64,000 bases of DNA from Spirogloea muscicola (taxonomy: Eukaryota; Streptophyta; Zygnematophyceae; Spirogloeales; Spirogloeaceae): NCBI GenBank assembly GCA_009602725.1, contig WELB01000053.1, positions 127,387 to 191,386 of the forward strand, given 5' to 3'. Shown one piece after another: positions 1,889 through 53,515 of this stretch. The notes under the pieces are model-generated. The model searched no databases. It was given only the letters and a program-made list of their open reading frames with translations, and was not told where the DNA came from. The position numbers and the translations under genes were made by a program. Within the stretch, counting starts at the first letter, position 1. Every line of letters begins with the position of its first letter.

Positions 1889-1955
1889 GACATTGTCCAT
1901 TCTTTCTTTGGCTGGCTTTGCTAGCCCCCCTTCTCTCAGGGCGAGCACTTTCTTT
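1889..1955 (+). repeat. GGCTGG hairpin repeat, tail TGTCCATTC
   Basis: Contains TTGTCCATTCTTTCTTTGGC followed by GGCTGGCTTTGCTAGCC and a GGGCGAGCACTTT end. It is the same organisation as the copy at 3001-3100 and, reversed, at 53235-53310. Confidence 0.6.
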
Positions 1956-2166
1956 TTTTCTACATTGACAGGCGGCCGGGCCTGCCCGGCCGCCTGGGGC
2001 GCTGCCCGGGGCGCTGCCCGGCTTCCATGCCGCCGGTCTGCTCGCCCAGGTCTTCCTTATGCGCCTAGCGGTCTCGTTCCGACGCTCCCTTGCCTACGCC
2101 GTCCTTACGCGAGCAGGCCGTGCTGTGGCTGCTGCCTGAGTCTCGGCGGAGTGCCTCTTTCCCGGG

Positions 2167-2523
2167 GCTTTCTGCCTCGCGGGCTGGCCACGCTGCGGCG
2201 AAGGCCGCTCGCAGCAAGGCGGCCAAACACGCCGACCACCCGGCTGCCGATGAGTTCGTCCCCCTGGCTGTGGACGTGCACGGCGCTCTCAGGTCCCACT
2301 AGCTCGACCTGCCAGGCTTGCACGGCGCGTGGTGTCCTGCAGGCGCGGTGAGCCGGCTGACTTCAACGCCGCTGGCTCGTGGGCTCAGGTATATCGTATG
2401 CGACTGTCCGTCTCCCTTCAGCGGTCCATGGCCCACGCCTTGCATCTGCGTGCCTTTCGTCAGGGGGATAATTTTCCGGCAGCTAGTCTGTCGGATTTGA
2501 GGCTCCTCACTCGTAACTACTGA
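2167..2523 (+). mobile_element. LINE ORF C-terminal fragment, second copy
   Basis: Plus-strand frames give GHAAAKAARSKAAKHADHP and EFVPLAVDVHGALRSH, a stop at about 2298, and then in another frame FNAAGSWAQVYRMRLSVSLQ through GDNFPAASLSDLRLLTRNY and a terminal stop at 2521-2523. These are collinear with the copies at 1345 and 31915. The internal stop and frame change show it is not functional. The sequence just after the stop (2540-2668) is the presumed 3' region and contains a hairpin repeat. Confidence 0.75.
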
Positions 2524-2589
2524 GTGGTCCAGCCTCCCCCGTTCTGCCATAGCCTCTTCAGGCCCCGAAGTCGCTGCTTAGCTCGTAGT

Positions 2590-2668
2590 TTGGCCCCTTC
2601 GAACCTTGTCAATTCTTTTCGGGCTGGCTTCTCACAGCCCTTGCCCCCCTTGGGAGAGCCACTTCTTT
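2590..2668 (+). repeat. GGCTGG hairpin repeat
   Basis: TGGCCCCTTCGAACCTTGTC, AATTCTTTTC, then GGGCTGGCTTCTCACAGCCC and a TTGGGAGAGCCACTTCTT end. It lies directly 3' of a LINE ORF stop codon, and a near-identical copy is at 3738-3825. Confidence 0.65.
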
Positions 2669-2772
2669 CCCTGCAGCGAGCTACTCTGACTTGATGTTGC
2701 TCACTCGCGGGTACTGAGCTTCCCTCTGCAACGTCTCGTGTTTTGTGGTGTAGTCCTTTTCGGCACCTCTTC

Positions 2773-2884
2773 GCGGTCCATTTGCGCGCAGGCCGCGCTC
2801 TGGCGGCGGCCTCTGGCTTCCGTCAGGGCGACGTCTTTCCGCCTGCTAGCTATTCAGATTTGCATCTACTGACTAGAGCTTACT
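2773..2884 (+). mobile_element. LINE ORF extreme C-terminus, third copy
   Basis: One frame reads VHLRAGRALAAASGFRQGDV then FPPASYSDLHLLTRAY and a stop, matching the tail of the copy ending at 2523. Only the last 35 or so codons are present. Downstream at 2885-2990 lie TGCTGTCTTAG and a hairpin repeat, as at 3370-3510. Confidence 0.6.
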
Positions 2885-2920
2885 GAGAGTCCGCTTGCTG
2901 CTGTCTTAGTCCTTAAACAC

Positions 2921-3000
2921 TCCGGCCCCTTCAGACCTTGTCCATCCCTGTGGGCTGGCCTCTCCCAGCCACCAGTTAATATGGCTGTGCTTGCTCTTTC
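2921..3000 (+). repeat. GGCTGG hairpin repeat, CCACCAGTTAAT type
   Basis: TCCGGCCCCTTCAGACCTTG, TCCATCC, GGGCTGGCCTCTCCCAGCC, ACCAGTTAATATGGCTGTGC and TTGCTCTTTC. This subtype is the one found with target-site duplications at 51862-51937. Confidence 0.7.
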
Positions 3001-3100
3001 TTTCTTTGGCTGTGGACATTGTCCATAGCCAAAGAATTCTTTTTGGACTGGCTTTGCCAGCCCTCCTCTATGGGCGAGCAATTTCTTCTTTCTTCTTCCA
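3001..3100 (+). repeat. GGCTGG hairpin repeat with GGGCGAGC end
   Basis: Contains TGGACATTGTCCATAGCCAA, ACTGGCTTTGCCAGCCC, ATGGGCGAGCAATTTCTTC and a TTCTTCCAGTGG end. The stem here is TGGCTTTGCCA, perfect. Confidence 0.65.
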
Positions 3101-3217
3101 GTGGAGAACGAACAGCGCTTCCAATGGAGACCGACGGCTGGAATTGGCCAGCCCAGTAAAAGGGCTGAACAGAAACCGGGCTGAGTTTTCCAGGGGGAAG
3201 CCCCGACACTTCGCACG

Positions 3218-3292
3218 AAGCAAGCGCGGCCAGATTAACTGGTGGCTGGGAGAGGCCAGCCCAAAAGAATGGACAAGGTCTGATGGAGTCGG
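3218..3292 (-). repeat. GGCTGG hairpin repeat, CCACCAGTTAAT type, inverted
   Basis: Plus strand reads AAGCAAGCGCGGCCAGATTA, ACTGGTGGCTGGGAGAGGCC, AGCCCAAAAGAATGGACAAG. This is the reverse complement of the TSD-flanked copy at 51862-51937. Confidence 0.75.
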
Positions 3293-3447
3293 AGTGCTAA
3301 GGACTGAGACAGCAGTAAGCGAACTCTCAGTAACCTCTCGTCAGAAGATGCAAATCTGAGTAGCTAGCACTTACTGACTCTATGTTACTGAATGAGAGCT
3401 CCCCTTGCTGCCGTCTTTAGCAATTAGTATCTTGCTTTTTGCGCCAT

Positions 3448-3665
3448 CCGGCCCCTCCAGACCTTGTCCATTCTTCTGAGCTGGCCTCTCACAGCCACCA
3501 AGTCACTTCAGAAGAAAGCAAGCACGGCCAGATTAACTGGTGGCTGGGAGAAGAAAGGGCTCGCCCATTGAGGATAGGGGCTGGAAAAGCAGCGCTTTGG
3601 AAGCGCTTTGTCCATTATTTTGGGCTGGCCTCTCCCAGCCACCAGTTAATCTGGCCGCGCTTGCC
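3448..3665. repeat. Nested cluster of three hairpin repeats
   Basis: A plus copy (3455-3508: CAGACCTTGTCCATTCTTCT, GAGCTGGCCTCTCACAGCC) is followed by a minus copy (3514-3560: AAGCAAGCACGGCCAGATTA, ACTGGTGGCTGGGAG), a fragment of the 'TTGAGGATAGGGGCTGGAAA' subtype (3560-3592), and another plus copy (3600-3665). The breaks suggest insertions into insertions. Confidence 0.65.
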
Positions 3666-3737
3666 TTGCTTTACTAAGTGGTCCATCCTCCCCTGTTCTG
3701 CCATAGCCTCTTCAGGCCCCGCAGTCGCTGCTTAGCT

Positions 3738-3825
3738 CGTAGTTTGGCCCCTTCGAACCTTGTCAATTCTTTTCGGGCTGGCTTCTCACAGCCCTTGCCC
3801 CCCATTGGGAGAGCCACTTCTTCTT
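3738..3825 (+). repeat. GGCTGG hairpin repeat
   Basis: Nearly identical to 2590-2668: AGTTTGGCCCCTTCGAACCT, TGTCAATTCTTTTCGGGCTG, GCTTCTCACAGCCC, ATTGGGAGAGCCACTTCTT. The upstream sequence (CATCCTCCCC...CGTAGTTTGG) also matches that before 2590, so the duplicated unit is longer than the hairpin. Confidence 0.65.
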
Positions 3826-4448
3826 TGTCCGACACAGACGGCGGGAGTGGCGAGGGGTGGGGCCGCGCCGCGTGGCAAGGCGCCGACTGCGGCCCTGCGC
3901 CGACGGCGGCGGCACAAGGGGTTAACGGCTGCCTTGGCGGGCGAGCAAGACCGCCGGATCATCATCTACGGCTGCGCTAGCCCACGGCAAAGCGGCCGCG
4001 GCGCAGTCAACACGTGGCGGCAGCCGCGCGCGCCGCCGCAAGATGCGGGCTTTTGGCGCGGGCGGCGCTGCGTCACGTGCCAGGCCCGCCTGGAAGTTAT
4101 CGGCGAGTTAGCGCGAGTTATCGGCCGCCGGGACGCGCTCCCGGCGCCTGTGGCCGGGCCGCCGGCGGTCAGGGCCGCCGTCAGTGAGGGACCGGGCCCC
4201 CGACAGGTAAGAGGGAGCGCCCAGCACGGGGCCGGGGCGGCGGGAAAGCGACACGGGCGGGCCCCGGCTGGCCGCCCCTCCCTCCTCCCGCGGAAGAGCT
4301 CCTGGTAAGCGGATTCAGTGCCACTTGGGGAGGGGGGGACGCGCAGCCGGCAGCAGCACTAATAAGACCCCGGGAGGAGGAGCTTGAGGGAGGCCAGTCG
4401 GAGCTCGGGCGCCGCCGCGGCTAGGGCTTGCGCCGCGCGGCGGCCGCC
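3826..4448 (+). promoter_or_regulatory. GC-rich 5' flank of the GAUT gene
   Basis: A GC-rich, CpG-rich stretch between the repeat cluster and the GAUT start codon. I see no other gene here. It presumably holds the promoter and 5' UTR; no TATA box is convincing. Confidence 0.4.
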
Positions 4449-7400
4449 ATGGCGAGCCTCAAGGCCGGGGGCGGCGGCGGCGGCGNGGCGCGCTGCACCA
4501 GCTCCTGCCGCGCCGCTTCGCCGCGCCCGCCGCCGGGCGCGACGTCTACTGCTCCGCCTGCCTCCTGCTCGTCGCCGCCATCGCCGTCCTCTCCCTCGCC
4601 ACGCCCATCTTCTGGACCATCAAGGCCAGCAGCTGGCACATCTACGTCCGCGAAGCCGACGCCAAGGACGGTGCGCTGAGACTGCCTCGCTGCCTGGCAC
4701 CGGCGCCCTCGTGATGCCTGCTTTGCCCTGCAAGACGGCGTTGCAGTGCAGTGATGCCTCCACGTCTCTCCTCAGTTGGGGTGTTCACGTCTCACACGAT
4801 CCTGCCGAACAGCAGCTTCAAGCTGACACACGAGCTGATCAGGGTGTAGGTGTCCCCGTGCTCTTCTTAGATCCCTGGCAAATCACACAAGAACCTGCTA
4901 CATCATTGCAGATAGTATGGTATGCCACTCACAGGCCCTTTCTGGGTTAGTGCCTGACTTGTTTTTCGTTCTGCTCTTTGCAGTCCCCTTCAGAATACAG
5001 GGCAGGAGCTACTCGGTCATGAACTACATCCATAACATAGCACAAGTAACAACACCACACACTACAAACCTTTTCACAGCAGTCTCGCGTTACGTGCAAT
5101 GTTGGTCAAGCCTGAGCAAGCGACCCTATGTAAAACTTTGACAGCTATCACGCATGCCCTCTACAAATCTAGGGTTGAACAGCCGTTTGGCAGCTGTGCT
5201 GCCCTGACCAGTGTTCTGCACCGTACAGGACGAAGTGGAGGACGGCGTCTATGGGGGAAAGGGTAGACTCATGCCTTTGCGGCTGTCAAGACAGAGCAGC
5301 CAGACTTCAAGCTTAGAGGAAGAAGAGGAGGAAAACCCTGGTGATGAGGCTGCTCCTGGTGGAGAGGAGGTTGCCCGTGGGGAAGGGCTGGAGAGCGTCT
5401 CATCATCGTCAAAGGTACCTTCTATTGCATCAGAATTGCCCGGACCTGGTATACCGGCATGGTCACAGCCTTGCGCTTAGTTAGTTGGGCTGTCAGGGTA
5501 GCTCTTGTCTTATCCCAGTGGTGCACTATGCAGAGTATCCATAAGGTTCACAGGCTCATTGTCCAAAAAGCATCTCTCAAAGCTGGAACATGCCAAGATG
5601 GGTCGTGTCATTGTTTTTGTGAAGATGCGTCGATGCATTCCTGCTCCCCAGCCCTTCCTTAGACGTTTTGCAGGCTGGCCTTCCTAACCAGAGGCTCTAT
5701 CTCTCTAATCTGCTAGCAGGTCTCATTGACATGTCACTCTCATGGCTGACTTCGTATGTGCAGGACACTGACGAGAAAGACAGGGGCAGCACTGACAATG
5801 CAGGTAGCAATAAATGCCTTGCACCAGTCATTGTATCTTTACTTAAACTGATCAGATTGCTATACTCAACAATAGGCCTGAGACGTGCATTGGACTGGTC
5901 ATGGAGCAGCTGCCCGTCTCCGGTGTTCTAGCTGAGTGGCCCAGCAAGTCGTTGTGCCTTGAGCTGATGGCACAGGTTGATCATTAAAGAGAACTAGGCC
6001 GCGCTTGGGTTGCCCAGAAGCCCAAAGTCCCTGTCTGACCGAAACCCTGGCAGACACAATTAATCATGACGAAGTCAAAGATTAGTGTGTTTTGCAGCTC
6101 TAGCAGATGCACTGCGCAACATACTCATACTTGACCTTTACATAGCTAGCTGCCAGGGGGCAAGTCAGGAAGGAGGAGGGTGCTCTGGGCAGTTGAGGCA
6201 GTCGTCTAGTGTTCTGCTTGATGTTCATTAGAACGCATAACCTCAGGGTGCTACGTTATGATCATTTGACTGCATCATCAAGCATGCCCTGCTTCAGAAG
6301 TGGTCAGCACACGTGTCAAGGTCTTGGGGGAGTCATGAATTACTGCATGCAGACGTCAGGAATGCTAATATATCTGCTTTTCACCTGGCAGATCGTATCG
6401 CTTCTATGAGGAGCCTCCTACGAGGACAGCTCAATCTTGCTAAGCAGCACGCAACGAATGTGAATGTGTTCCAGAACAAGCATCTGTCAAGGCACCTAAG
6501 CGTGTTGATAGCAAGGGCAGAGGACCTTGTGGCTCAACTAGATGGCGAGCAGGCAGTCTGGAGTGACGCAGATGTCTTCCCCAGCACCTTACAGCTGCTG
6601 GAAGTAACAAATGCCAGGTCAGCTCCTGCATTAACCTGCTTGCCATGCAAACCCTTCTGCTGCATAAGCTGGCTCTGTGTATACCTTGTTTGGAACTCTG
6701 TCAGAAGGTTTTGTTATATCTGGCTCTGTAGTACTCCTTGGCTAGGAAGGTGCATGTCCTTCCTGTACAGACCAATCTAAAGGTGAGCATTTCCCCTGCT
6801 ATTGTGGTGGTGTTGAATAGGGCTAAGGAATGGCAAGGCAATCTCCTCAATATGAGGAAGCTGAAGGCAAGCATTGCCAAAGGCAAGGAACGGTTGCTGC
6901 GACTGCGACGGGAGCGTAACATGCTTGACCTGGCTGCTGCCAAAGCACTACCCAAGGCCTTGCACTGTGTCAGCCTACGTTTAACCATTGAGCTCAATAA
7001 GGATGAGCGACTCAAGCAGGTGCGCATGCAGACAGTCTTGTCAGCCTAATGCCCAGAAAATATCTTGCCCTTCACATGACAAGGATCGATCAGGACAGGC
7101 TCCTCCTGCTGTTTGCTCTCTGTTAACGACTGCATCTTTCTTGAGTGAGATTGTTGTTAAAATCATGTTGCGCTGCCTCATGCTGCATTCCCTCAAGATA
7201 CAAATCGTTAAAAGAAGTTGTTGCGCCTTGTCTTGATCTGTGGTTGTTGATGTTGCCTATGTGAAGAAAGTTGCTGTAGTGGTCATGGCTTCTACTGAAG
7301 GTTACGTACTAAACTGCTGAGGTTGTGTGAACGTTTCAGAGCTTAGCAGCCCGCCTTGAGGCAGACAAGGATAGGCTGCAGGATGGCGAGCTCAACCACT

Positions 7401-9250: not shown

Positions 9251-10584
9251 CGTCAAGGCAGTTGACCATGGTGTCAGCTTCCCTGCGATTGGCAGGGTCG
9301 GTGACAACAGTGTCGCCACTGTATACCTTATTGGTAGAGCAGATTGCAGCACATGCTGCTTCCACTTGTGCTGTACATGATCCAGCTTTTGCCTGGAGGA
9401 GGCCGGGAGGAGCCATTGCACTCCAGCTTAGAAATTGCTTTGCAGCACCTTCAATCACTCTTCCTGCCATATGCAGGTCGAAATTGTATCTCTGACATTT
9501 AGCTGTGCTCACAACTAGTGGCTATTATGGCCTCACGTGAAAAGTAAAATTCTATGAACCCTGCTGAACACTGCATCTAGCTTTTGCCAAAGTTCATCTT
9601 GCAGCGACTGAGAGTTGCTTGTCACTTTGCCTCTCTTTGCCAACTTTGCTATGGATGTTTGAGAGACATTCCTCACTATTCAAGGAATACAAGCGACCTG
9701 CAGAGGCTTCATGTTTTTGTGCAAGTGATGGTGCCACAGGCGTCTTCAATACACACGAGCCAATTATGGTAGTTTTGAGTCACTGAGATTGACATTCTCG
9801 TCGTTGTTTACCATCTAAATGCATCCACTGATGAAAATCAAGGGATCACATTGCCTACCTTAACTATCAAGATGACAACAGCAAATTTTACTGATTCGTA
9901 CACAAGCTTTTTCCCCACCTAAAAGTCCATCTGTGCAGCTACATGTCTAATGAGATACAACCGTGTTGAGGCAGTTGATTGAGCTTAATTAATTAGTGTA
10001 TGTCAATACAATGTGTGCTGCAATATGCTAATGTTGGATTGGTTATTATCTGCCAAAAGTGATCATGAACATAAGTTTATGCATCCATGTGCAACAAGCA
10101 GCAACTCTGATCTATGTTCCCACCACTAATGCGTAGACAACCATGTCATGCAGTAGCTTGTGCACCAACATTACGACGTGCCACAACAACAAACCCATGT
10201 CAAACAGCATAGTTGTGCAGCCAATGCTCTCACCCCATGCACGAAGTCTGAGAGATTTGGACTTTGGCATTATGACCAGACGACAGATTCATGAGCACGC
10301 CAAAACCCCCTGGTAAAGTGACTGTGACCACCACTTGCTTGACTTGCCAATAAGCACTGCTGATTGCTCGGCAGTGCAATTTGGCAGCCCAAAATTGGTC
10401 CATATTACATATGTACTCTAAGAGGACATTGGCACGTGCATCCTTGTCAATCTCAACATCTATGGCTGGTACATATCCTCCTGGGTACTCCAGATTCGTA
10501 CATCCAATAATGGTTGAGCAGCTCCTGTCAACTCCGCAACCATTTCCTGCCCGCCTCTGAACAATTTCAGAATGGGGTCAATGC
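9251..10584. other. Intergenic, no gene seen
   Basis: Less GC-rich sequence between the GAUT stop and the small minus-strand gene. It must contain the two convergent 3' UTRs. No ORF, RNA gene or repeat of this window's families is evident. Confidence 0.4.
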
Positions 10585-11414: not shown

Positions 11415-11452
<38 letters not shown>

Positions 11453-11830: not shown

Positions 11831-13013
11831 CTCTTTTAATATGAGCCCTAGCGCAATCGTAGCCTACTTTTCGGCACTAAGTTTCTGCCTGAACAATGTA
11901 TCGGTTTGGATTGGCCACCCTTTTCAGTTCATGCGCGCCTTCTCTCTCTTTCAGTAGGCGGCGTCGGCTGTAACTGGTCGGCCCAGAAAAAGAAGTGAAC
12001 CGAAACTGAAGGGGCCAGAAAGAAGAAGTGGCTGGGAAAGGGCCAAGGCATACAGCGACTCAATCCGCCAATGTGGGTGCTCAATAACCACCTAATGAGC
12101 AGCCGCAGGTCAGAGAAACTATTCTCCAACGCAGAGGAAAAGACGCTTCCAGTAGAGGGCGGTGGCTGTGAGATGGCCAGCCCAACGTAGAACTAGCTCC
12201 CCCGAAGGAACAACTTGGCTGTAAAGCAGAACGGCTAGCCCTCCCCCTTACTGTCGCAAACAGTGGAACATTGGTACTAGGGTAGGTGTCTTTCAAAGGC
12301 AGTCCCGGTGGACCAGCGTGCTGCGGCAACGGCGCGCGGAGCGCTACAACCGTGCCAGCAGCTATAAGTCACTGACAAGAGCCAACGAGCTAGGGTGCTT
12401 GAGGCAACGAGCGGCACGAAAGCTTCACCGCCTGGGGGCCTTGGTTGCGAGTAGCTACATTGACGAGCAGACTGGCTTGCAGGCTGAAGACAGGTGGAGT
12501 GCGGTGCTCTGTGAGCATTCAGTTTCTCGTGACTAATCCGTGGCCAATTTGAAAGCCACGGATCGTGCCGAAGCACACAACCTGATAAAGCAAAGGTAGC
12601 TACAGGAGCAACGGTGTCGTAGTTTCAGATATCATGACGTTCATCTGCCAAGGAGGAATGTTGCAGTGAAATCAAGAGAATCTCAGATGCTCGGAAAAGA
12701 GCACGACAAGACTGTGTATCAAAGGGCTCCTCCAAAGCGAACCAGGTGTGACACTAGGCAGCATTCATAGTGCATACCGTGAATATCCACTTGCTGACAA
12801 AGTGGAATACAGGCATGTGTCCCAAAATATGTATTACACTGCCGTGGATGTGACTGGTAGCAACTCATAGTAGCTAGCAATTTACATCACAACTGATGGG
12901 AAGTCAAGTTTGGCACTTGTTGCTTCCAACACAGCCCTAAAATAGAGAGCTGTAAACTCTAGCATAATTTCGAGTTATGAGTAACAGGCCCATCTAGGAC
13001 CGTACATTCCCAC
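11831..13013. other. Spacer with degenerate repeat
   Basis: No recognisable gene. A hairpin-family copy lies at 12140-12190. The rest gives no coherent coding signal. Confidence 0.35.
12140..12190 (-). repeat. GGCTGG hairpin repeat, CTTCCAGTAGAGGGCG type
   Basis: Plus strand CTTCCAGTAGAGGGCGGTGG, CTGTGAGATGGCCAGCCCAA. Same subtype as 17755, 32552 and 50965. Confidence 0.65.
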
Positions 13014-13379: not shown

Positions 13380-13480
13380 CCACACCTCTGCATCGACTAT
13401 GTGCTCCCTTGCCCGATGAGGACTGGAAAAGTCCGAGCGGAGGGGCTGCCGTATCTCGCGGTCAGTGGCCTGTCATCCTC

Positions 13481-16616: not shown

Positions 16617-16889
16617 GTCACGGCGGCGCCTCCCTTCCGCGCCGCCACGGCCGCCGTCAGTGGCAAGCCGAGGGCCGTCTGGGGAGGACTGACGGGGGCG
16701 ACATCGGCGGGGGAGGCCCGGAGGTGGGTGGGCGGGGGACGGTGGTGAGAGCTACAGTTCCCGCGGCCATGGAGGGTGTGGGCGCTGGGCGCACGCCGGC
16801 GGCCCGCCCGGCTCCGCGGGCGACGGGGTGGGGAGCGGGCGGTTGGTGGTGGCTCCAACAGGGCCTCTCAGTGGCTCTCCTTGTACATT

Positions 16890-16925
16890 CCCTTGTGGGC
16901 TGGCCTCTCACAGCCATTGCCTAGA
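16890..16925 (+). repeat. GGCTGG hairpin repeat, short
   Basis: ATTCCCTTGTGGGCTGGCCT, CTCACAGCCATTGCC. A related, more diverged copy is at 17105-17140 (TTTGGGCTGGCCTTTC). Confidence 0.6.
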
Positions 16926-17339
16926 ATGTTGGAAAGTGCTGTTTCTCCCAGTGGCTAAACTTCGCAGTGGAATGATGTCGCGGAGGCCCACCGCCGCCGA
17001 CGTCGCGAGCCCAACCGGTTGGGGATTCTGAGCGCCATTCGTCGTGGCCACTTTGTCTAAAGTCTCCTGGGTTTTACGCTTGTCTGGCCCCCTCGGAAGG
17101 ACTCGGCAATTTTTGCTTTTTGGGCTGGCCTTTCTACAGAATCAAGCTCTTCCCCAGGACAAAGGTTCTAAGGGGCCAAATGACGGAGGGGCCTAAAAAG
17201 CGCTAAGCAGCTACGAAGGGGCCTGAAGATGGGGCTTCCACAGGGGGCAGAGGCTAGTTCTTGTTCAACAGGAGAAGTAGCTATGTCACGAGGGGCGAGG
17301 GCTGCAAAGATGGGGGAGCTCTTTGAGCTGCAAAGAGAG

Positions 17340-17405
17340 ACGGGCTCGCCTATTGAGGATAGGGGCTGGAAAAAGCCAGCCCAGAAAAGAATGAACAAAG
17401 GGCCA
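17340..17405 (-). repeat. GGCTGG hairpin repeat, TTGAGGATAGG type
   Basis: GCTCGCCTATTGAGGATAGG, GGCTGGAAAAAGCCAGCCCA, GAAAAGAATGAACAAAGGGC. Perfect stem GGCTGG/CCAGCC; the reverse-oriented relative is at 49920-49985. Confidence 0.7.
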
Positions 17406-17754: not shown

Positions 17755-17915
17755 AGTAGAGGGCGATGGCTGTGATTGGCCAGCCCAGAACAAGGCATGT
17801 ACAAACTTCGAAGGGGCCATGTGGCTCCGGCAGCGCGCCAGGCCACCGCTCTGACATTCGTTTGGGCTGGCCTCTCCCAGCCACCAGTTAATCTGGCCGC
17901 ACTTGCTTTCTGACC
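17755..17915. repeat. Two opposed hairpin repeats
   Basis: A minus copy at 17755-17825 (GTAGAGGGCGATGGCTGTGA, TTGGCCAGCCCAGAACAAGG) and a plus copy at 17855-17915 (TTTGGGCTGGCCTCTCCCAG, CCACCAGTTAATCTGGCCGC). Confidence 0.65.
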
Positions 17916-18049
17916 GCGCCGGCTGCTCACTGCTTCGCTGCTGACCAGTGGTTACTGTAAAGAAGTGGCTCTCTCAGGGGGTGTGCAAAGTTGAGACTCT
18001 TCCAGTGCTATGATCGACCCTAAACGTAAATCTAAACCCCAAGAATGAT

Positions 18050-18085
18050 ATTGCGCGCCCGTAGAGAAGAGGGGCTGGCAGAAAA
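18050..18085 (-). repeat. GGCTGG hairpin repeat, GAGAAGAGGGG type
   Basis: GCGCGCCCGTAGAGAAGAGG, GGCTGGCAGAAAAAG. It directly abuts the LINE 3' fragment at 18086. Confidence 0.55.
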
Positions 18086-18307
18086 AGATTTCGTATATTT
18101 GAAACAAACGAAGGCCAAATGGCCAAGTACAAAGGCACGCACATCTTAAGACCTACATAACCTACAGTAGATTGACCCGCTGAGAAACCACGGGTCAAAA
18201 CATAAAGGTCGCTAACCGATGCCTGGATACTAGATGGCAGATACGAAGCCCTTCTGCTACCAACTAGAGCTCGCCCAGCTTTCTGGTGCAAAGCATTAGC
18301 CTGAGCG
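18086..18307 (-). mobile_element. 5'-truncated LINE copy (3' UTR only)
   Basis: About 220 bases closely match 59498-59727, the 3' UTR and end of the LINE ORF on the minus strand. Shared landmarks include GAAGGCCAAATGGCCAAGTA, ACATCTTAAGACCTACATAA and ACCACGGGTCAAAACATAAA. The similarity stops abruptly at the GCCTGAGC position, as expected of a 5'-truncated retrocopy. Confidence 0.85.
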
Positions 18308-18785
18308 GCAGAACAGGAATGAAGGCGAGGGCTGTGAACAGCTAGCCCGAAGAAGCTCACAGCCGTTGCCCATACTCCGAAGTGCAATTCTATCCAAAGA
18401 GCGGCACTGCAATCACAGCCATCGCCCTCCTTCTGCAGAGAAACGACGCTTCCAGGAGAGGGCGGTGGCGGTGGCCAGCCCATAGATAAAGAGAATTGGA
18501 GGAGTCTTTCTTCTGAAGGCGGCGAGAGCTGTGCAAAAGCTGTGACGCATTCCACTGGGGACGCATACCAAGAGTCTTTCTCTCAGTGGAAGAAGCTCGC
18601 CCAATTTAAGAAGGTGGCTGGGAAAGGCCAGGCCAGGAATATTGGACAAGGTTCAAAGAGCCAAAATGCCTAAACCACACAGCTATGCACGAGACTACAG
18701 CGGAGGGGAGCTAAGTATCCCAGTAATTCATTGGGGAAACCCTGTCCATTCGTTCTGGGCTGGCTTTTCACAGCCCCCACCCATT
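18300..18785. repeat. Four hairpin repeats, diverged
   Basis: Copies at about 18312-18345 (GCGAGGGCTGTGAACAGCTA), 18440-18490 (CTTCCAGGAGAGGGCGGTGG), 18605-18660 (GGTGGCTGGGAAAGGCCAGG, ATTGGACAAGG) and 18745-18785 (plus; TGTCCATTCGTTCTGGGCTG). Confidence 0.5.
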
Positions 18786-19512: not shown

Positions 19513-19570
19513 TGGCCCCTTTGAACTTTGTTCATTCCTCTTTCCTAGGCTGGCCATACCATTGCCGTTC
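19513..19570 (+). repeat. GGCTGG hairpin repeat, diverged
   Basis: TCTGGCCCCTTTGAACTTTG, TTCATTCCTC, GGCTGGCCATACC. The 3' half of the stem is lost. Confidence 0.45.
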
Positions 19571-19749: not shown

Positions 19750-20030
19750 GCAGATGCAGACGCAGACGCAGACGCAAATCCATGGTCACACAGAGTTCAG
19801 AGTAGCACAAAGACTTGCCTGGTCACGCACAGAGCCGGCGAGCACTCAGCTCCACCTGGCCGCACACAGAGCTGGCAAGCGCACAACGCCGCCTCGCCGC
19901 ACACAGAGCCGCCGCGCACACAGCGCCGCCTAGCCGCACACACAGCCGCCGTGCACACAGCGCCGCCTAGCCGCACACAGAGCCGCCGCGCGCACAGCGC
20001 TGCCTAACCGCACACAGAGCCAGCGAGAAA
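19750..20030 (+). repeat. Minisatellite, CGCACACAG-rich units of about 37 bp
   Basis: From about 19850 the motif GCCGCACACAGAGCCGCCGC plus GCACACAGCGCCGCCTA repeats about five times with small changes. A short GCAGAC 6-mer repeat precedes it at 19751-19780. No ORF uses it convincingly. Confidence 0.75.
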
Positions 20031-30913: not shown

Positions 30914-31914
30914 ATTTGTGAGACTCTCTCATGGAGGTGTTTATGTTCCCTAGCTTCGCCTGCCTTCATCTTGGGTAGCAACGGATCTGCAAGAAACACC
31001 GCAAGTACGTCCTGCAAATGGGGCCTCAGGCGCCCAGTGACCAAGCAATTGCAAAGGACAGCCATGTTGATACGAATATACAGGCAGGCGAAGCTCGGCA
31101 ACATAAATCTCTCTGAACCCACCAAGTTCACCTTCTGTCTGCTCCAATATATGGTACTGGCAGATACTTATCCCCTTGTAAAACAGAAATCATTGGACCA
31201 TTGGCTTGCCTGCTTAGCTTGTCGTTCCGAAACAAGATGCTATACTTTCTACGTTAACAAACAAAAATGCTGGACATTATTGGGGTGTCCAATCACAGCT
31301 ACTCCTGCCATATGCCCCTCGCAAAGAACTGCCTTTGAGAACTCATGTCAAGCACCTAGGCAGCTTCTCGATCTGCTCATAGTAGCACCGTATGCGTCCT
31401 CCAGAAGGGCTCTACGTGACGGAGAGGCAAAGGTTGCACTGTAAAGGGATAGGAGCCGCAACGGGCGGCCCAGCCTTTGAGAAATCCAGACGTGGTGATG
31501 AGCTCGCTAAAAACAGCTCGAGAAGACAGGTCGCTCACAGGCATTGCTATTGTTGGCCAGCCCACGAGGTTCTAGGAGGAGGGAGACCGCGACCGCCTGA
31601 AGGGTGCAAGCCCTATTGCTGCCTTGAATGGCGAGCTCTGGCAGTAAGGTATTGAACGGAACGAAGAGGTGGAGGCCGTTAATTGCAGCACAGGGGGAGG
31701 GTACACATAGTGATCATGGGGAAGGTCAGCGCAGCTACCTGCCACAGCCACCCGAGGCCAGGTCCGCCTGCCAACTGGGAAAAGCCGGTCCTTGCTGCAG
31801 ATCAGAGAAGAAGCTCCTCCATAGGGGGTGATGGGTGTGAAAGCAGCTCTGCCAGGCCAGCCTCTCTCGACTGCTCCAACCAGGTCATCTCGTCCTCAAA
31901 AGAAGGACATGCAG
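30914..31914. other. Spacer after SMC2
   Basis: The SMC2 3' UTR, then sequence with short hairpin-like traces (31538-31575: TTGTTGGCCAGCCCACGAGG). No gene recognised. Confidence 0.35.
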
Positions 31915-32299
31915 TGGCCAGTGCTACCCGAGGCAAAGGAAGCAAGGTATGCTACTCTTGCGGTGGAGGACGTATTTGTTCCCCTCGTCACCGATGTCCA
32001 TGTGTCCTTTTGGCTCGGTGGCTCGACCAACTGCACCGGCTTGCGCGACAAGCGGTGTCCTGCTGGCGGCATGGGGAGCAGGCTGAGGTCAACGCCACAG
32101 GCTCTCTGGCCCTGGTGCACTGCACGCAGCTTTCCACCTCCCTGCAGCGCTTTTTGGCTCACGCCCTTGCATGTGCATGCAGGCCGTTCCATGGCTGCCA
32201 CCTCCGACTATCAGCAAGGGCACTGCCTTTTGGTTGCTAGTACTTCCGACTTGCGGTTGCTAAGGTGGGGGTATCGAGCGACTATGCTCAGTGTGTGAC
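31915..32299 (+). mobile_element. LINE ORF C-terminal fragment, degenerate
   Basis: Frames read VEDVFVPLVTDVHVSFWLGG, then VNATGSLALVHCTQLSTSLQ, then ALHVHAGRSMAAT and STSDLRLLRWGY. They are collinear with the copies at 1345 and 2167 but spread over three frames. Confidence 0.7.
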
Positions 32300-32551: not shown

Positions 32552-32620
32552 AGGCGCCAGTAGAGGGTGATGGCTGGAATTGGCCAGCCTAGAACAAGTA
32601 TGAGCAAAGCTCGTAAGGCA
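32552..32620 (-). repeat. GGCTGG hairpin repeat, CCAGTAGAGGG type
   Basis: GCGCCAGTAGAGGGTGATGG, CTGGAATTGGCCAGCCTAGA, ACAAGTATGAGCAAAGC. Close to the copy at 17755. Confidence 0.65.
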
Positions 32621-44111: not shown

Positions 44112-45425
44112 GGGGCGTGGCCATGGCAGTGGCGGGCGCGACGTCGGGCTGCCAGGTCCCTGGCGCCGTCGGGTGACGGCACACGACCCCACTGAACGAG
44201 ACGGGCACAGAAGGCTTTGGGCGACGCTCTCCCAAGTGGGACGGCGGGTCGACCACCCCGTCGGCTGGCGAGCGGCCAGCCACGACGGCTTAACGAGCTG
44301 GGGCGCCTCACAGTCGCTTCGCAGAACCGGGCCGCAGTGCCCTCGACTGGTAGCACGCCTGTGAAGGCCGGCCTAGGCGCACCTAGATGGTGGGAGGTGG
44401 GTGCTCGTGATACACCATCGAAGCCTCCGGCCGAGAGATGCCATGCCCAGCAGCTGAGTTTAGCCTCTCAAGCCATCGGCCGCTTGCTGCTTACGCTGGC
44501 CGCCTTGCTCACTCTTACAAACTTCTGCCGACAATGGCGGCCTTGAGAGCTGCTGCTTCTCCGCCTCTCGGGCTACTCCTTGATGGTCAGCCGAAGGCTT
44601 TGATCTAGCAGAGGCTGCCATGTCGATAGATGTTCTCATCTCGGAGGTGCTTACATGCTTGCAATGCTCTAAGTCACCGCCCACAATGCCTACTCTGAGA
44701 TTCACCCGCATTGTGCAGAGTGAGGCGTTGTGGACTTCATCTCACTCTTGGCACCTGAACCCAGTGCTGAAGTTCAGCGGTCGGGTTACAAGCATCTCCA
44801 CCACAAGTATTTGTAATTGGTGTGTCACTGTCTCCAGCCAACCCACCAGCCACAGCAACACGAAATGTCTACTAGTAACTCACTACTCCTGCCTACCACA
44901 GCTTCATGTCTCTTAGACTTGACCATGATTCAGAACTCTGTACTCGGAAAAAGATCATAGCGTGCGCTTGCAGCAAATTTAGCCTTTGCACACTGCTCTA
45001 GCAACGACCTGGACTGTACGTTGCAAGAAGCACACACATCTATACCTCTGGAGGGTCCACCATCCCACGAGCACCAAGACAATTTGTCTATGAATGATGT
45101 CAATGGGTCTGCAATACCCAGTGAAAAGGGGGGACAGCGGCCCTTGGCAGTGGATAGTAGAGCAAGGACTAATTTGCAAAGGATCAGCCAAAAAAGAGCT
45201 GGTTTGGTACTCTTGTCAGCTCTGTTGCCATGGTGGCGGCTAAAAGCCACTGCCACCTTGAAGTGCTTCGAAGCGGCTGATTTCAGTAAGTGTGCACCAG
45301 CAAATGGCGGACCATCAAATCCGTCCAATAAAAATGGGCACATGCCTATGCCGTGTGGGCCTAATCTATCAAATTCCCTCTTACAGACTATGACACAAGA
45401 TGCCATGTATGTTGTGGAACAGCCA
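44112..45425. other. Spacer upstream of PheRS
   Basis: GC-rich near 44112-44300 (promoter side of PheRS), then the 3' UTR side of the DUF547 gene. No further gene recognised. Confidence 0.4.
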
Positions 45426-48400: not shown

Positions 48401-48678
48401 CCTGTTGCAGAACCAACCTGGCCAGTGGCGCTCTGCTTCTTCTTCGCGGACCTGCCAATCCTCTTCAGAGAGTCCATGCGGACGAATGCCACGGAGGGAG
48501 CCAGGGGGTCCTGGTCGATGGCCAGGGAGATGACCTTCGCCTTCTTCGACTCATCCGCGGGTGGAAGTGGCAGCAGCGACAGCGCCTGCTGCGGCTCCGG
48601 CGCGGCGGCGAGGGCCGATGCTATGCCATCGGCGGCGGGCGCCTCCGCCGGCTCCGGTACGGCCATGGCCGCGTGCAT
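45426..48678 (-). CDS. Glutaredoxin-DEP-DUF547 protein
   Basis: Eight exons: 48678-48166, 48021-47860, 47694-47383, 47220-47165, 46873-46643, 46479-46185, 45982-45786, 45561-45426; 633 aa, all phases agree. After a Ser/Lys-rich N-terminus of about 170 residues comes a glutaredoxin-like domain (GRITLFSTTDCPQGRAISSI, IIEVNVDHHPESIVEL, FFNDDLIGGYDAI), then a DEP domain (KDRWHKFRLYRNCFLGSDCV) and DUF547 (KMAFLVNIYNVLALHATALL, YIIGGAAYSLNDLEYGLLLG, DEDPLIHCALFSGVKSSLS, ESVDEQLRLAATLYFENG). This order is known from plants, algae and stramenopiles; its biochemical role is not established. The CxxC position reads CPQG, so the second thiol is absent. Start: the first in-frame ATG (48678); a second with stronger context lies at 48666. 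Confidence 0.93.
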
Positions 48679-49919
48679 GGAGCGGGCCGGCCGCGGCGGA
48701 GGCCGGGGGCCCCGCCGGCCGTCAGAGCGGTGGCGCTCTCCTTCTTCTCCAAGGACCTGCCAGTCTCTGAGCGCCGGAGCCTGCACGACGGCTCATGCCT
48801 GAAGGACAAGCGAGCGGCGGCGGCGGCGAGGAGTGGCCGGCGTCGATCCGGCGGCCGCCGCGGCGTTGAAGGCGACGGATCTGCGCTGGCGGCGGCGGCG
48901 GCGGAGGGCCGTGCCTGCCTGGCGCGCGGCGCCTCGGGCTGTTGGCCGCACCTGCGGCACGGCAAGCTATGGACTAGGCGGTGAAGCAAGAGCGAAAGTT
49001 GCCCTCCCAAAGGGGGCTGCCAGCCCGGAAAGAAATTGACGGGGTCCCAAGGGGCCGAGAAGCGTCATGGAATGGAGTGTTGAATTGATGATGGAGGGGC
49101 CTGAAGGAGGGGGCTATGCCATGGTGGGCCGGGGGGCGGGGCGGCCGGCGATGGCGCGAGCGGGGCTCCCCGCCACGACGCGGGTCACGATGGGGAGGTG
49201 GGAAGGCGCAGTGAACGGTCCCGCAGATCCGCTGACGGGCCGCCGTCAAGCGCCGCCAGGGGCCGGGCCGGGCGGCGCGGCCATGTGAGCGGCGCGGTCG
49301 GGAGGCCCCTGGGCGGGCGACGCGTGGCGCGGGCACGACGTGGCCGCCCCGCAATCATAGCGCCCGGATCCGGGCCATGCGCGCGCGTGCCGGGTTAGGA
49401 GGGGCGACGTCCCACGCGATCCGGGCCTGCCAGTGATCGGACGGCGCCCATAGAGCCACGTGGAGATCTCGCATTTCAAACCGTCGGGGGGGCCCGCCAA
49501 AAGCAGGGCTGGCGACGCCGCCNGGGGCCGCCCCACCGTCTGGGGTGGGGCCACCTGGGCCCGAGCTGCGACGCTGACGCGCGGCGGACGGCGTGTTCCG
49601 TGCCGCTCCCGGGAGAGACCGGCGGCAGGCAGCCCGCCCCGCGCCCGCCCAAGACGCGCTGCCACACGCTACAAGCTGCCTGACACGAGCATCCGGGCTT
49701 GACCGCCCGCCTTCGAGAAACACCACCGGAAGAGAAGTGATCTATCTGTTTTCAAAAGCGGCCGATGGCTACGACGCTTGGCCTGCCAAAAAAAGACTTA
49801 ACAAGGAAAGGCCAGGCCCAAAATAGAACGGACGTGGCCACTCGCCATGCATATTAAACACCAACCCCTGTGGTGTGTCTTTGAGGCAGCTCTTCCGGAA
49901 AGAGACCAAGAAAACCCTA
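48679..49919. other. GC-rich spacer
   Basis: Promoter side of the DUF547 gene, then GC-rich sequence with a single N at 49523. Open frames are low-complexity, R/A/G/P-rich and unsupported. Confidence 0.4.
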
Positions 49920-49985
49920 GTCACCATTCTTTTTGTTGGGCTGGCCTTTCCCAGCCCCTATCCTCCATGGGCGAGCACTTCTCCA
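49920..49985 (+). repeat. GGCTGG hairpin repeat, CTATCCTCCATGGGCGAGC type
   Basis: TTCTTTTTGTTGGGCTGGCC, TTTCCCAGCCCCTATCCTCC, ATGGGCGAGCACTTCT; the reverse of the subtype at 17340. Confidence 0.7.
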
Positions 49986-50460
49986 GAAGCGGACGCAGAA
50001 GCGGACGCAGGACGGATCAACACGGCCCCCGTCGGCACGGCTCCCCCCGCTCCGTGGCACTCCCAGCCCTCCTCCGCCCCCCTGCCATTCTTCCTGCTGC
50101 GGCTGCTGCTTCCCACTCCTCTAGCAGCTCCATAGGCAGACGCAGGACGGGTCGCCAAGGCCCCCATCGGCATCCTTGGCCCTCCTTTCCACTCCCTCCA
50201 TCCTTCCTCCCACTGCTGCTGCCTCCCACTCCTCTTTTCTCTAGCAGCTCCTGCAACGGACGTAGGCCAGGTCGACAAGGCCTCATCGGCACTTCCGGCC
50301 GTCCTTCCCTCCCATGCCATCCCTCCTGCCACTGCTGCTGCCTCACTCCTCTAGCATCTCCAGAAGCGGACGCAGGAAAGGCCCCCAGGGGCTCTGCGGC
50401 CCTCCTATCCCCCCCAATCCCTTCGCCTCCCACTGCTGCTGCCCCACTTCTCTAGCAGCT
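49982..50460 (+). repeat. Tandem repeat, four units of about 100-147 bp
   Basis: Units start near 49982, 50129, 50250 and 50360. Each contains a GCGGACGCAGGA-like head, a C/T-rich middle with CACTGCTGCTGCC, and a CTCTAGCAGCTC end. One minus frame is open through most of it (ELLEEWEAAAAAGR-type repeats), but I judge it non-coding. Confidence 0.75.
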
Positions 50461-50504
50461 CCAGTAGCTGCTAGATGCTAGCAGTGCTACGTCATTTGAT
50501 GTGC

Positions 50505-50562
50505 TTTGCCTTTGTACTTGGCCAATTTGGCCTTCCATTGTTCCAAATACACGAAATCGTCC
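50505..50562 (+). mobile_element. LINE 3' UTR fragment
   Basis: TTTGTACTTGGCCAATTTGG, CCTTCCATTGTTCCAAATAC and ACGAAATC match the reverse complement of 59495-59550. It keeps the palindrome with a different centre (GGCCAATTTGGCC). Confidence 0.75.
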
Positions 50563-50964
50563 TTCTTCTAGTCACCAAGTGCAGGTCAGATTAGCAAGAC
50601 GAGAGAAATTTTGTATATGTGCAGGTCTGCTGGGCCAGGTGCTGGTCTGCAGGTCTGCTTACCTGGTGGTGAGGCTATGCAGGCAGGCCACTACTGGCTA
50701 ACAAAGCAGAGTCCTGGCCTGTAGGCGGGGCTTCAGGTGTGGTACTTCGACGCGCAGTGAGCGCTATACGGGCAGGCACGACGACAGAGTTATTGAGTGT
50801 TTCCGTAGCTGCTTAATTCCATGTCTGCCGAAGGACACCTTACCACGCCTTCAAAGAAGATAGTGCCTTGAGGGCAGCCTTGAGCTGATGATCGTGCAAA
50901 GCATCTGGCATGCGCACACGGCATTGGCAGCAAAAGGAAACAGCTTATCTGAAGGACGCAGACT

Positions 50965-51185
50965 CTTCCAGTAGAGGGCGATGGCTGTGATTGGCCAGCC
51001 CAGGAAAACAGAAAACAAAGGGGACGAGGAGATGGGCAACGAGCACAGCTAGTCCAATGCCTATCAAAAGCCTGTGCACAAAGAATGAACAAGGTCCCAG
51101 AAAATAACCACAGCTCTTTCAATGGAAGGCAAATGGCTGTGAGAGGCCAGCCCAAAAACATCATTAGAAAGCCTGAAGGAGCCGG
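50965..51185 (-). repeat. Two hairpin repeats
   Basis: 50965-51010: CTTCCAGTAGAGGGCGATGG, CTGTGATTGGCCAGCCCAGG. 51120-51185: CAATGGAAGGCAAATGGCTG, TGAGAGGCCAGCCCAAAAAC. Confidence 0.65.
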
Positions 51186-51703
51186 AAAAGACATGGAGAC
51201 TAATAAGGGCCATTCACAGCCACTGCCTTATACTGGAAGAGCTACTTGACTAAGGGTGCCTGCCCTGTGACCCCTAGTGCAGCCGACTGTTGTAGAAAGT
51301 AGCAGCAGGGAAGGAGTCGCCCCGCCTCGAGCTGGAGGCGGCAAAGGTCCGGCGAGCTAGCCATTGGAGCGAACAGTGTTACTAGGTGTCGGCATAGGAG
51401 GGTGGCTGCAGTATGGCGTAGGGGGGGCCTTCAAGGCAATGACGAGGCATGTATTCCGTGACAGCAGCGGATGCTCGAGGTCTGTTCCTGAGCCTGCCTC
51501 GAGCAATGAGCAGGACATCAATCCTCGCAGCGATGGGACCGGTCGACAGGCTCAAGGTCGTTGACAAGCATGGGCCGTCCAGAGATTAACATTCAATTCT
51601 ACATGGCCAAGGTAGAATGCAATATGACGAAAGGAAAATTGCGTGCCTACTAGCCTACTCCAAGTTGTGCCAATGTCCTTTGAAGCACTTTTAGATAAGA
51701 TGC

Positions 51704-52127
51704 ATGGTACAAGGGGGCTCAGAGCATCTCAGAATTCGGCTGAAGGCTGTCGATTGCACATTTGCCTACCACTCGCAACTGAATGTGCTAAAGCATACCG
51801 TCGAGGACAGAGAGATGAGGTTGAGTCATCAGGACCTTCCCTGCCCCTACACCATTGAGGTCAGACCTTCAGACCTTGTCCATTCTTTTGGGCTGGCCTC
51901 TCCCAGCCACCAGTTAATCTGGCCGCGCTTGCTTCTTCTACACCATTGAGGTGCTCAAGGAGAAAGTCTCTCACTGGGCATACCTGAAGGCCCATCAAGG
52001 TTATCTTAAAGGTGGGCGGCTTTTGAAGAAATGGTCGAAGTCTGCACTTCGCGACTGGCCAAAGATGCGTCTCCACTACACTGCTCATGCAAGAGATGCC
52101 AAGGAAAGGTGGACCCTCCGAATTTGA
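51704..52127 (+). pseudogene. Unrecognised ORF broken by a 76-bp insertion
   Basis: A frame from 51704 (HLRIRLKAVDCTFAYHSQL, NVLKHTVEDREMRLSHQ) reaches PYTIEV at 51861. There the inserted repeat begins and ends the frame at about 51949. On the far side of the insert, after the second copy of the target site, the same frame resumes (LKEKVSHWAYLKAHQGYLKG, RDWPKMRLHYTAHARDAKER) and stops at about 52127. Before the insertion it was a continuous ORF of at least 110 codons. No domain recognised; it may itself be an older transposon gene. Confidence 0.6.
51862..51937 (+). mobile_element. 76-bp hairpin element with 15-bp target-site duplication
   Basis: The insert CAGACCTTCAGACCTTGTCC, ATTCTTTTGGGCTGGCCTCT, CCCAGCCACCAGTTAATCTG, GCCGCGCTTGCTTCTT is bounded by identical copies of CTACACCATTGAGGT (51847-51861 and 51938-51952). 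That is direct evidence that this repeat is, or recently was, mobile. Confidence 0.9.
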
Positions 52128-53234
52128 GGCTGGGAGCTTTAAGTACACAGCTTGACGGAAAGTGATTGAGCTGGTTGCCGTGGACATCACAGGGTCATTC
52201 AAAGATAGGCCGAGCCATAAGTACACTTTCCTGGCTAAAATGCTACCTCATCTTTTGCATAGGTTGAAGCGGGCTTCTTCTCGAAACGAACGCGACGCAG
52301 GTGGTTTCGTACGTTCTTCAGGACAAGATATGTCAGGATCCATATGCACAATGAGGTCTGAAGTCAATCTGAACCACTTTGCTACAGCACATCCTTGCCA
52401 TCCTTTGCTGAAGCTGGGAGTGTGCCACAGCTTCGCTGCTCCCATATCACCCACACACAGCCGGCCTGGTAAAGATTGTTGGCTTAGACCATCAAGGAGA
52501 TGCTCACAAAGTATGTCAGCCTACTGCAAGAAGACCGAGACGAGTACCAAAATCTCGTGCTGGCGGGATGCGATTGGTCCTCAAGCAAGTCCTTGGGACC
52601 ACTCTCTTTTGGCTACAATTTCGAAGAGGACAGAATCTCTCTGGCATTGAACTGACCAGTCAAGGACAACCCACCCAGTGGTGGGAGTGGGAGGCGACAA
52701 ATCACACAATATGGCTATGATCTGAAAAATGGCGAATATCAGAGCAGAGCAAATACCAGAGGCGGAAGATGATTGTTGACCGCTTCCTGACTCATACAAT
52801 AGGAGCCTTATCGACTTCTTCAGCAAGAATATTGGGCTCTGCTAAGAGCCTTCAGAATAAGCATCTGGCAATGAGAGCCAGTGTTATACAAATGTCCGCA
52901 GCTGGTGCCTCAAAGTTACTAGAGACGTCCTCCATCTACATCTCTGGGCATGAGCCATATGTGGTGCGCGACGCAAGCCTCTCATAAACAACAATAGAAA
53001 ATGGGCGGAGTGGTATTACAGACGTGCCATTATGTGACTTAAGCCAGACCAGTATCAGGTAGAGTGCACCCTAGCCTAGACGGATGTCTCTTGAAGATCA
53101 TTAATATATATGTCGCAAGTGCACGTCTATCAGAATGTCGCGAGGAGCGCAGGTGCATTGCGGCTCACCCGGCCAAGCTGCTGACGGTGGAGACGCTACC
53201 TCCCACACGTCAAGGGGGTCGTCCAAAGAGAAGT
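52128..53234. other. Repeat-derived or degenerate sequence
   Basis: Open stretches without a recognisable domain (for example 52162-52650). Possibly the rest of the element carrying the ORF at 51704. No supported gene. Confidence 0.3.
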
Positions 53235-53310
53235 GCGCGCCCATAGAGAAGAGGGGCTGGCAAAGCCAGCCCAAAAAAGAATGGACAATGTCCAAAGCCA
53301 AAGAAAGTGG
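53235..53310 (-). repeat. GGCTGG hairpin repeat, GAGAAGAGGGG type
   Basis: GCGCGCCCATAGAGAAGAGG, GGCTGGCAAAGCCAGCCCAA, AAAAGAATGGACAATGTCCA. Perfect stem; reverse of 3001-3100. Confidence 0.7.
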
Positions 53311-53454
53311 AGCCGGGAAAAGGACTACACTACAAAACATTGCAGACCACATAGACGATGCAGAGGGAAGCTCAGTATCCAAAGGACAAGCGGGCTCCCA
53401 GTGTATGCAGACCCATGTCCACGCGGCCCCACCCACTGATGCAAGGAAAAGGTT

Positions 53455-53515
53455 CCACAGAAGGGGGCGAGGGCTGTAAGAAGCCAGCCTTGAAGATGGA
53501 CAAGGGTCAAAGGGC
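53455..53515 (-). repeat. GGCTGG-type hairpin repeat, diverged
   Basis: AAGGGGGCGAGGGCTGTAAG, AAGCCAGCCTTGAAGATGGA, CAAGGGTCAAAGGGCC. Confidence 0.5.

Follow-up and report, generated by a model that had tools for sequence, protein, structure and literature searches.

A conserved GGCTGG/CCAGCC stem-loop in the 3′ tails of a LINE group with several subfamilies in Spirogloea muscicola

Results

The hairpin lies behind a LINE coding region

A 64-kb stretch of the Spirogloea muscicola genome (GenBank assembly GCA_009602725.1, contig WELB01000053.1, positions 127,387 to 191,386 of the forward strand; hereafter the window) carries many short repeats built around a GGCTGG/CCAGCC stem-loop. These hairpin-bearing copies are the 3′ ends of one group of long interspersed nuclear elements (LINEs, non-long terminal repeat retrotransposons) with several subfamilies, and the hairpin is probably recognized by the element's reverse transcriptase (RT), a role argued here from its position and its pattern of variation. 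The group has a long frame that includes an RT domain, its copies are truncated at the 5′ side but keep a fixed 3′ end, and they carry target-site duplications (TSDs) of variable length. A conserved stem-loop near the 3′ end, as in LINEs of the stringent type, is present as sequence, with fold support for some subtypes. Beside the window, further stretches of the same 153-Mb genome (L009-L035) were analyzed; nine of them (L009-L017) were chosen for hairpins and are excluded from density estimates. Tails were detected with a sequence-only profile, R1, made from 70 copies chosen out of 106; these copies were picked partly by stem, and R1 is biased towards consensus-like stems.

Locus L031 contains a 1,338-codon open frame that matches the reverse transcriptase family RVT_1 (8.5e-16, 58.7 bits), and its hairpin begins 77 nt past the stop codon. 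Among solved structures, the best matches of the L031 RT are R2 proteins (7.5e-7 with the single sequence and 4.4e-9 with a profile). With the L031 frame as tblastn query, 23 rows extending to the C-terminus were obtained from the window and L009-L031, of which 18 belong to the same lineage (lineage 1, including the query itself) and five to a second lineage. The search pattern finds the hairpin behind 16 of the 18 lineage-1 C-termini, at 43 to 109 nt from the stop in 14 of the 16; the other two are L016, with a distance of 187 nt, and L019:8442, with 327 nt, a fusion of the coding end with a B tail ahead of the next stop. In the two rows missed by the pattern, the 3′ untranslated region (UTR) runs into another LINE piece (L015:2986-2675) or the hairpin is present with one changed base (L015:3692-3931). 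Nine of the 18 rows come from the hairpin-chosen stretches, one is in the window and eight are from stretches chosen otherwise, and all eight of the latter carry the hairpin. The five second-lineage rows are 29 to 43% identical to the query and have a tail after the stop without the GGCTGG stem (read by eye); hairpins further downstream of them belong to other tails.

The L031 frame gave no Pfam match to an apurinic-type endonuclease at E ≤ 1. Neither Pfam nor the solved structures gave a match to its C-terminal domain, and no restriction-like endonuclease was detected there by profile or structure. A CxC..H..C motif and a DLV..DVV stretch follow the RT, both seen by eye and motif-like only, and C2H2-like fingers precede it with matches below the Pfam cut-offs. 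Searched against prokaryotic and viral collections, the LINE protein reached a best E value of 0.68.

Tail architecture and subfamilies

The coding strand is the opposite of the one on which the family was first described from the DNA alone (the sequence-only reading). In the coding sense, the element consists of the coding region, the stop, a short 3′ UTR with the hairpin, GGNNGAGC and TTTCTTC, and the tail reads ...TTGTCCATTCTTTTGGGCTGG-loop-CCAGCC-(~14 nt)-GGNNGAGC-NNTTTCTTC; tails B and C have GCGAGC some 14 nt after the stem. The neighboring tail CCCAAAAGAATGGACAAG of the sequence-only reading is present, but it is the antisense of CTTGTCCATTCTTTTGGG and is located upstream of the stem. 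Seventy tails (alignment A1) align from ~25 nt ahead of the stem through the 3′ end. Because all of them align over their length, the subtypes have homologous outer ends, contrary to what had been supposed.

The proposed division into four or five subtypes holds insofar as subtypes A to D are LINE subfamilies, each with its own tail type behind its own coding end (B in L031, C in L032, A in L035, D in L020 and L030); a subtype D coding end is also present in the window at 2314. The stem of L032 itself has one changed base, the L035 hairpin lies 79 nt after the stop, and in L033 and L034 a broken frame is followed by C-type tails. Compared with B, the C-terminal protein of C is 65% identical, that of A 64% and that of D 71% (for D over <100 residues), and the lowest RT identity to B in the best 151 matches listed is 70%. 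Among the matches listed, 18 copies on 18 contigs share an identical RT stretch in open frames of 1,142 to 1,403 codons, which suggests recent movement of the LINE. Subtypes E and F look older and are not tied to a coding region. The sequence-only reading had also considered that all copies might be internal pieces of one long known transposon; they are pieces of one LINE group, but 3′-terminal ones, and they represent several subfamilies.

In subtype E tails (e.g., window 50960-51020), the strand opposite the tail reads CCAGTAGAGGGCGATGGCTG. This resembles the vertebrate CTCF core motif, a likeness that we take to be probably a coincidence.

Abundance and distribution

The exact pattern GGCTGG-N3..12-CCAGCC occurs at 11 sites in the window, against a mean of 0.29 and a maximum of 2 in shuffled sequences. 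Ten of the 11 fall within R1-detected tails of one family (the exception is 44263-44281), and the loops differ by subfamily, in line with the shared stem and differing loops first noticed. R1 gives 33 matches in the window at E ≤ 0.001, clustered at 1.7-3.8, 12.1, 16.9-19.6, 31.8-32.6 and 49.0-53.5 kb. The earlier figure of at least 25 copies and its blocks agree with these coordinates; eight of the 33 are weak pieces below 22 bits. The features of the window are as follows (coordinates, strand, description, basis).

1388..1705, +, LINE C-terminal coding fragment, amino acids 1211-1314 of P0001 (tblastn, 65% identity)
1701..1748, +, LINE 3′ tail, subtype D, truncated inside hairpin (R1 model 29-76)
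1887..1959, +, LINE 3′ tail, subtype C (R1, 50.7 bits; aligned in A1)
2023..2103, +, LINE C-terminal coding fragment, amino acids 1277-1303 (tblastn, 67%, E 4e-4)
2234..2523, +, LINE C-terminal coding fragment, conserved stop 98 nt before hairpin at 2622 (tblastn, 58-61%)
2597..2670, +, LINE 3′ tail, subtype D (R1, 66.6 bits)
2785..2886, +, 33 C-terminal LINE codons and stop, ahead of subtype A tail (translation)
2929..3003, +, LINE 3′ tail, subtype A (R1)
3013..3091, +, LINE 3′ tail, subtype C (R1)
3105..3177, -, LINE 3′ tail, diverged (R1)
3217..3283, -, LINE 3′ tail, subtype A (R1)
3455..3500, +, LINE 3′ tail, subtype A, without 3′ end (R1 model 2-48)
3549..3589, -, LINE 3′ tail, subtype B, starts in loop, without 5′ arm (R1 model 33-74)
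3605..3671, +, LINE 3′ tail, subtype A (R1)
3751..3826, +, LINE 3′ tail, subtype D (R1)
12134..12185, -, LINE 3′ tail, diverged, begins near stem base (R1 model 24-74)
16879..16929, +, LINE 3′ tail, subtype F-like (R1)
17116..17134, +, possible LINE 3′ tail piece, weak (R1, 15.3 bits, E 7e-4)
17333..17400, -, LINE 3′ tail, subtype B (R1)
17756..17813, -, LINE 3′ tail, subtype E (R1)
17855..17911, +, LINE 3′ tail, subtype A (R1)
18042..18082, -, LINE 3′ tail piece, without 5′ arm, weak (R1 model 35-75, 21.5 bits)
18319..18353, -, LINE 3′ tail piece, weak (R1, 16.9 bits)
18437..18489, -, LINE 3′ tail piece, weak (R1, 15.9 bits)
18587..18657, -, LINE 3′ tail, diverged (R1)
18738..18784, +, LINE 3′ tail, diverged (R1)
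19519..19556, +, LINE 3′ tail piece, weak (R1, 17.5 bits)
31804..31843, -, LINE 3′ tail piece, weak (R1, 17.9 bits)
32554..32615, -, LINE 3′ tail, subtype E (R1)
48991..49051, -, LINE 3′ tail piece, weak (R1, 20.6 bits)
49925..49982, +, LINE 3′ tail, subtype B/C (R1)
50960..51020, -, LINE 3′ tail, subtype E (R1)
51117..51160, -, LINE 3′ tail, subtype F (R1)
51208..51241, +, LINE 3′ tail piece, weak (R1, 18.4 bits)
51847..51861, no strand, TSD, 5′ copy, CTACACCATTGAGGT (flank comparison)
51862..51937, +, 76-nt 5′-truncated LINE copy, subtype A, hairpin and 3′ end only (R1, flank comparison)
51938..51952, no strand, TSD, 3′ copy (flank comparison)
53225..53296, -, LINE 3′ tail, subtype C (R1, 65.0 bits)
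53442..53512, -, LINE 3′ tail, diverged (R1)

The genome-wide count and orientation that had been proposed as a check gave 14,998 places with the exact stem in 153 Mb, against 50 for the reversed pattern, and no strand preference: with three queries and up to one mismatch, the two strands hold 2,876 and 2,929, 927 and 922, and 1,813 and 1,835 places, and the reversed controls none. R1 found 187 matches at E ≤ 0.01 in 270.5 kb of sequence. At E ≤ 0.001, it found 48 in 11 arbitrarily placed 10-kb stretches (110 kb), three of the 11 stretches having none. Extrapolating from 48 per 110 kb and 33 per 64 kb, the 153 Mb would hold roughly 67,000 to 79,000 tails or tail pieces. The prokaryotic and viral collections contain one and two matches to the stem pattern, none of them a tail by R1.

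Truncation and target-site duplications

A subfamily reference could be assigned to 121 of the 150 best tails (four of the 121 being the references themselves). Their aligned lengths range from 33 to 972 nt with a median of 75 nt, and 80 copies are of 100 nt or less; the comparison stops near 970 nt, and for diverged copies the lengths are minimum values. Copies start at many different points in the tail, 3′ UTR or coding region, with no class having a fixed 5′ end. In the stretches analyzed, alignments to the frame, leaving out L031, number 0 below amino acid 700, 31 at amino acid 1250 and 29 at amino acid 1300. Loose candidates in the genome fall from 18,561 for the last 53 amino acids to 2,687 for 61 amino acids further in and 1,188 for 166 amino acids of the RT, counts that are only indicative because the queries differ in length.

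TSDs were scored as the longest word common to both flanks in 66 of the 121 copies, leaving out those without a recognizable 3′ end or usable flanks, with N, or beginning at the reference start; the control was 20 rounds of mispaired flanks. Words of at least 8 nt are shared in 21 of 66 copies against a mean of 3.5 in the mispairings, and words of at least 10 nt in seven of 66 against 0.7; the two longest look like local repeats. The clearest TSD in the window is 15 bp long (CTACACCATTGAGGT) and flanks the 76-nt copy at 51862-51937. Many of the shared words start with CTT or TTC and so resemble the element's 3′ end. That would agree with the RNA end annealing to the target, but the same pattern can result when element and target overlap.

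The abundance and brevity of the tails could also be read as those of a separate non-autonomous family of short interspersed nuclear elements (SINEs), self-transcribed and borrowing the LINE tail, which would make up most of the short copies, and subtypes E and F have indeed not been traced to a coding region. We consider this unlikely given the absence of a fixed 5′ end among the 121 copies and the LINE coding ends found upstream of A to D tails. No tRNA, 7SL or 5S head was found in the window nor, by Rfam, in five loci; the window has no tRNA and no Rfam RNA except for a U4 match. Short, numerous, hairpin-ended repeats would likewise recall the ends of a DNA transposon, a miniature inverted-repeat transposable element or a Helitron, but the one-sided truncation, the continuity with an RT frame and the varied length of the TSDs make such an origin exceedingly improbable.

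Among R1 matches that reach position 60 or beyond in the loci analyzed, counted by eye, eight start at the stem base (positions 23-26), 13 in the loop or at the first base of the 3′ arm (positions 33-38) and three inside the 5′ arm. These clustered start points could mark stops of reverse transcription or reflect a local alignment effect.

Conservation, covariation and folding of the stem

Within the tail, conservation is highest in the stem, and the sequence and length of the loop differ between subfamilies. In the consensus tails of the six subfamilies A to F, 11 of 12 stem columns are identical, against 13 of 61 elsewhere (Fisher 7e-6), and in A to D 11 of 12 against 26 of 60 (0.003); 6 of the 70 rows were unassigned and left out. 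When one representative per subtype was folded, B (z -4.8), C (z -3.4) and E (z -3.0) were clearly better than shuffles. RNAalifold on A1 gives one hairpin of seven pairs (-1.69 kcal/mol), two of the seven having both-sided changes and three outer pairs differing from the named stem. For a structure that includes a second helix, the number of paired cells and the covariation score exceed all 500 shuffles, although related sequences can exceed shuffles without structure. All both-sided changes lie in that second helix, and the pairs with such a change are no more than in shuffles (296 of 500 and 406 of 500 reach their number).

Several points weigh against recognition of the stem as paired RNA, or against the evidence for the LINE tails more generally. 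No compensatory change was found in the six named stem pairs, either in the 70 tails of A1 or in 148 distinct tails aligned without structure (A2), so that, for the named stem, the covariance test proposed with the sequence-only reading gave the outcome set there as refuting (0 of 6 pairs with both-sided change in each set). Pair 6 does not form in 28 of 70 tails of A1 and in 61 of 142 of A2. Representatives of A, D and F fold no better than shuffles (z -0.3, -0.5 and -0.2), and the best fold of the F copy does without the stem. Picking copies by their stem inflates the count of conserved stem columns, half of the rows reaching the C-terminus were taken from the hairpin-chosen stretches, and 45 of the 66 copies have no shared flank word of 8 nt.

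Given the lack of compensation and the failing sixth pair, pairing in the RNA is not proven, and a sequence-specific signal would also fit. The palindrome might be kept as a DNA or RNA sequence motif, for example as a protein-binding or 3′-end-processing site, with the fold being incidental; the arms vary little and never by compensation, pair 6 is dispensable, and half of the subtype representatives fold no better than shuffles. A simple linear site does not explain why the loop changes in sequence and length while both arms stay, and stem-loops are common in the tails of stringent-type LINEs (PMC3747384, PMC4176376). We regard a motif of this kind as rather unlikely, if less so than a SINE origin of the short copies. 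Recognition of the hairpin by the RT is the best explanation because the arms stay while the loop varies and because the hairpin is sited where stringent LINEs carry their recognition stem-loop. The suggestion that the hairpin serves as the signal for a LINE RT fits its context, behind the LINE coding end in 16 of 18 cases, but the named stem shows no covariation.

Two further structures were considered and rejected. One is another small hairpin that follows the stem, CCAG..CTGG in subtype A. In the sequence-only alignment, it shows both-sided changes in 26 cells at columns 79/91, where 63 cells are unpaired, and is therefore a feature of some subfamilies at most. The other is an outer stem in which upstream TTGTCCAT pairs with downstream ATGGGCGA in the best folds of B and C. 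In 116 copies, the two halves of one copy have a pairing energy (-7.89 kcal/mol) no better than that of halves combined across copies (-7.91, standard deviation 0.20) but better than that of shuffled halves (-6.23), and the outer stem was not retained as a covarying structure.

A second LINE lineage and other neighbors

The second LINE lineage is present in the window at 18091-18327 (-), 59502-59715 (-) and 50490-50554 (+), and in L010, L012-L015, L020, L026 and L027, with a C-terminal protein identity of ~40%. In place of the GGCTGG stem, its tail has its own short hairpin, mostly TTGGCCATTTGGCC, and the 3′ end ATACACGA. The sole Rfam match in the window, to U4 small nuclear RNA (63.9 bits, 59702-59865, within 59602-60391, strand -), is a 5′ U4 piece embedded in a copy of this lineage between two 60-nt LINE stretches that are 92% identical. 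It does not look like a gene, and the arrangement is as if produced by template switching; the genome has five U4 matches, three scoring 100 bits. Decayed LINE coding sequence, 30 to 52% identical to the L031 protein, lies at window 381-1379 (-), part of which is 63% identical to the second lineage, and at 31863-32274 (+). Direct repeats with a 37-bp period occupy window 19768-20021. A match to a PMR5N domain hints at a green plant or alga as the host genome. Judged by eye, the 1,524-codon frame at L029:3039-7610 (-) is a Ty3-like retrotransposon; close to its N-terminus, five-residue HAHEG repeats form a long run.

Discussion

We propose that the LINE protein recognizes its own RNA by binding the 3′ UTR hairpin and that reverse transcription then begins at a nick in the target (target-primed reverse transcription), where the UUCUUC end may anneal to CTTC-like sites. 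Synthesis would usually stop early, leaving tail fragments as most of the insertions. The constant stem may act as a common handle and the loop as the subfamily-specific part. A more tentative extension, which we raise as a possibility and hold to be well short of probable, is that several live subfamilies share the invariant stem as a handle and use the loop as a private address, in an R2-like but dispersed LINE of a green plant or alga. If this is true, stem versus loop recognition and cross-mobilization could be read from tens of thousands of natural insertions. The choice of its own RNA by a LINE protein is known from few elements, and one genome with at least four subfamilies that have the same stem, different loops, long frames and many insertions would make the roles of stem and loop directly testable. 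For annotation, short "hairpin repeats" of this kind should be recognized as LINE tails. The sequence-only reading knew of no described family of this form, and we likewise found no description in searches of the open-access literature (Repbase and most subscription journals, which may list it, were outside the scope of the search).

The family may resemble R2: its best RT matches among solved structures are R2 proteins, it has a single long frame with C2H2-like fingers before the RT (below cut-off), and a motif-like CxC..H..C and DLV..DVV follow the RT, as seen by eye. R2 inserts in 28S ribosomal DNA (rDNA). Insertion into rDNA is also a subject of PMC12203849. Unlike R2, the present family is dispersed, with the 18 copies of identical RT on 18 contigs and varied flanks; rDNA itself was not looked at. 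PMC4640811 names Utopia, NeSL and HERO as other LINEs with a restriction-like endonuclease, HERO having many non-specific members, and they are likened to this family by description only.

Monocot L1 LINEs and their SINEs have a tail hairpin with a conserved CGAG just 3′ of it (PMC3747384), and the family described here is likewise a green-plant LINE with a hairpin in its tail and, in B and C, the GCGAGC after the stem. The mode of conservation is reversed: in the monocot tails, according to PMC3747384, the stem varies with compensation while CGAG and the loop are kept. The monocot tails also belong to the L1 clade, whereas no apurinic-type endonuclease match was obtained here.

The stringent tails of UnaL2, ZfL2-1 and ZfL2-2 have, like those of S. 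muscicola, a stem-loop near the 3′ end, and theirs is recognized by the element protein, in tests in cells and in vitro (PMC4176376), whereas the present family is known from its DNA alone. It differs from UnaL2 and ZfL2 in that its RT is nearest to R2 among solved structures. In zebrafish L2 LINEs, PMC4176376 describes recognition that can be bipartite, of the stem generally and of the loop specifically, and the constant stem with subfamily-specific loops found here fits that scheme.

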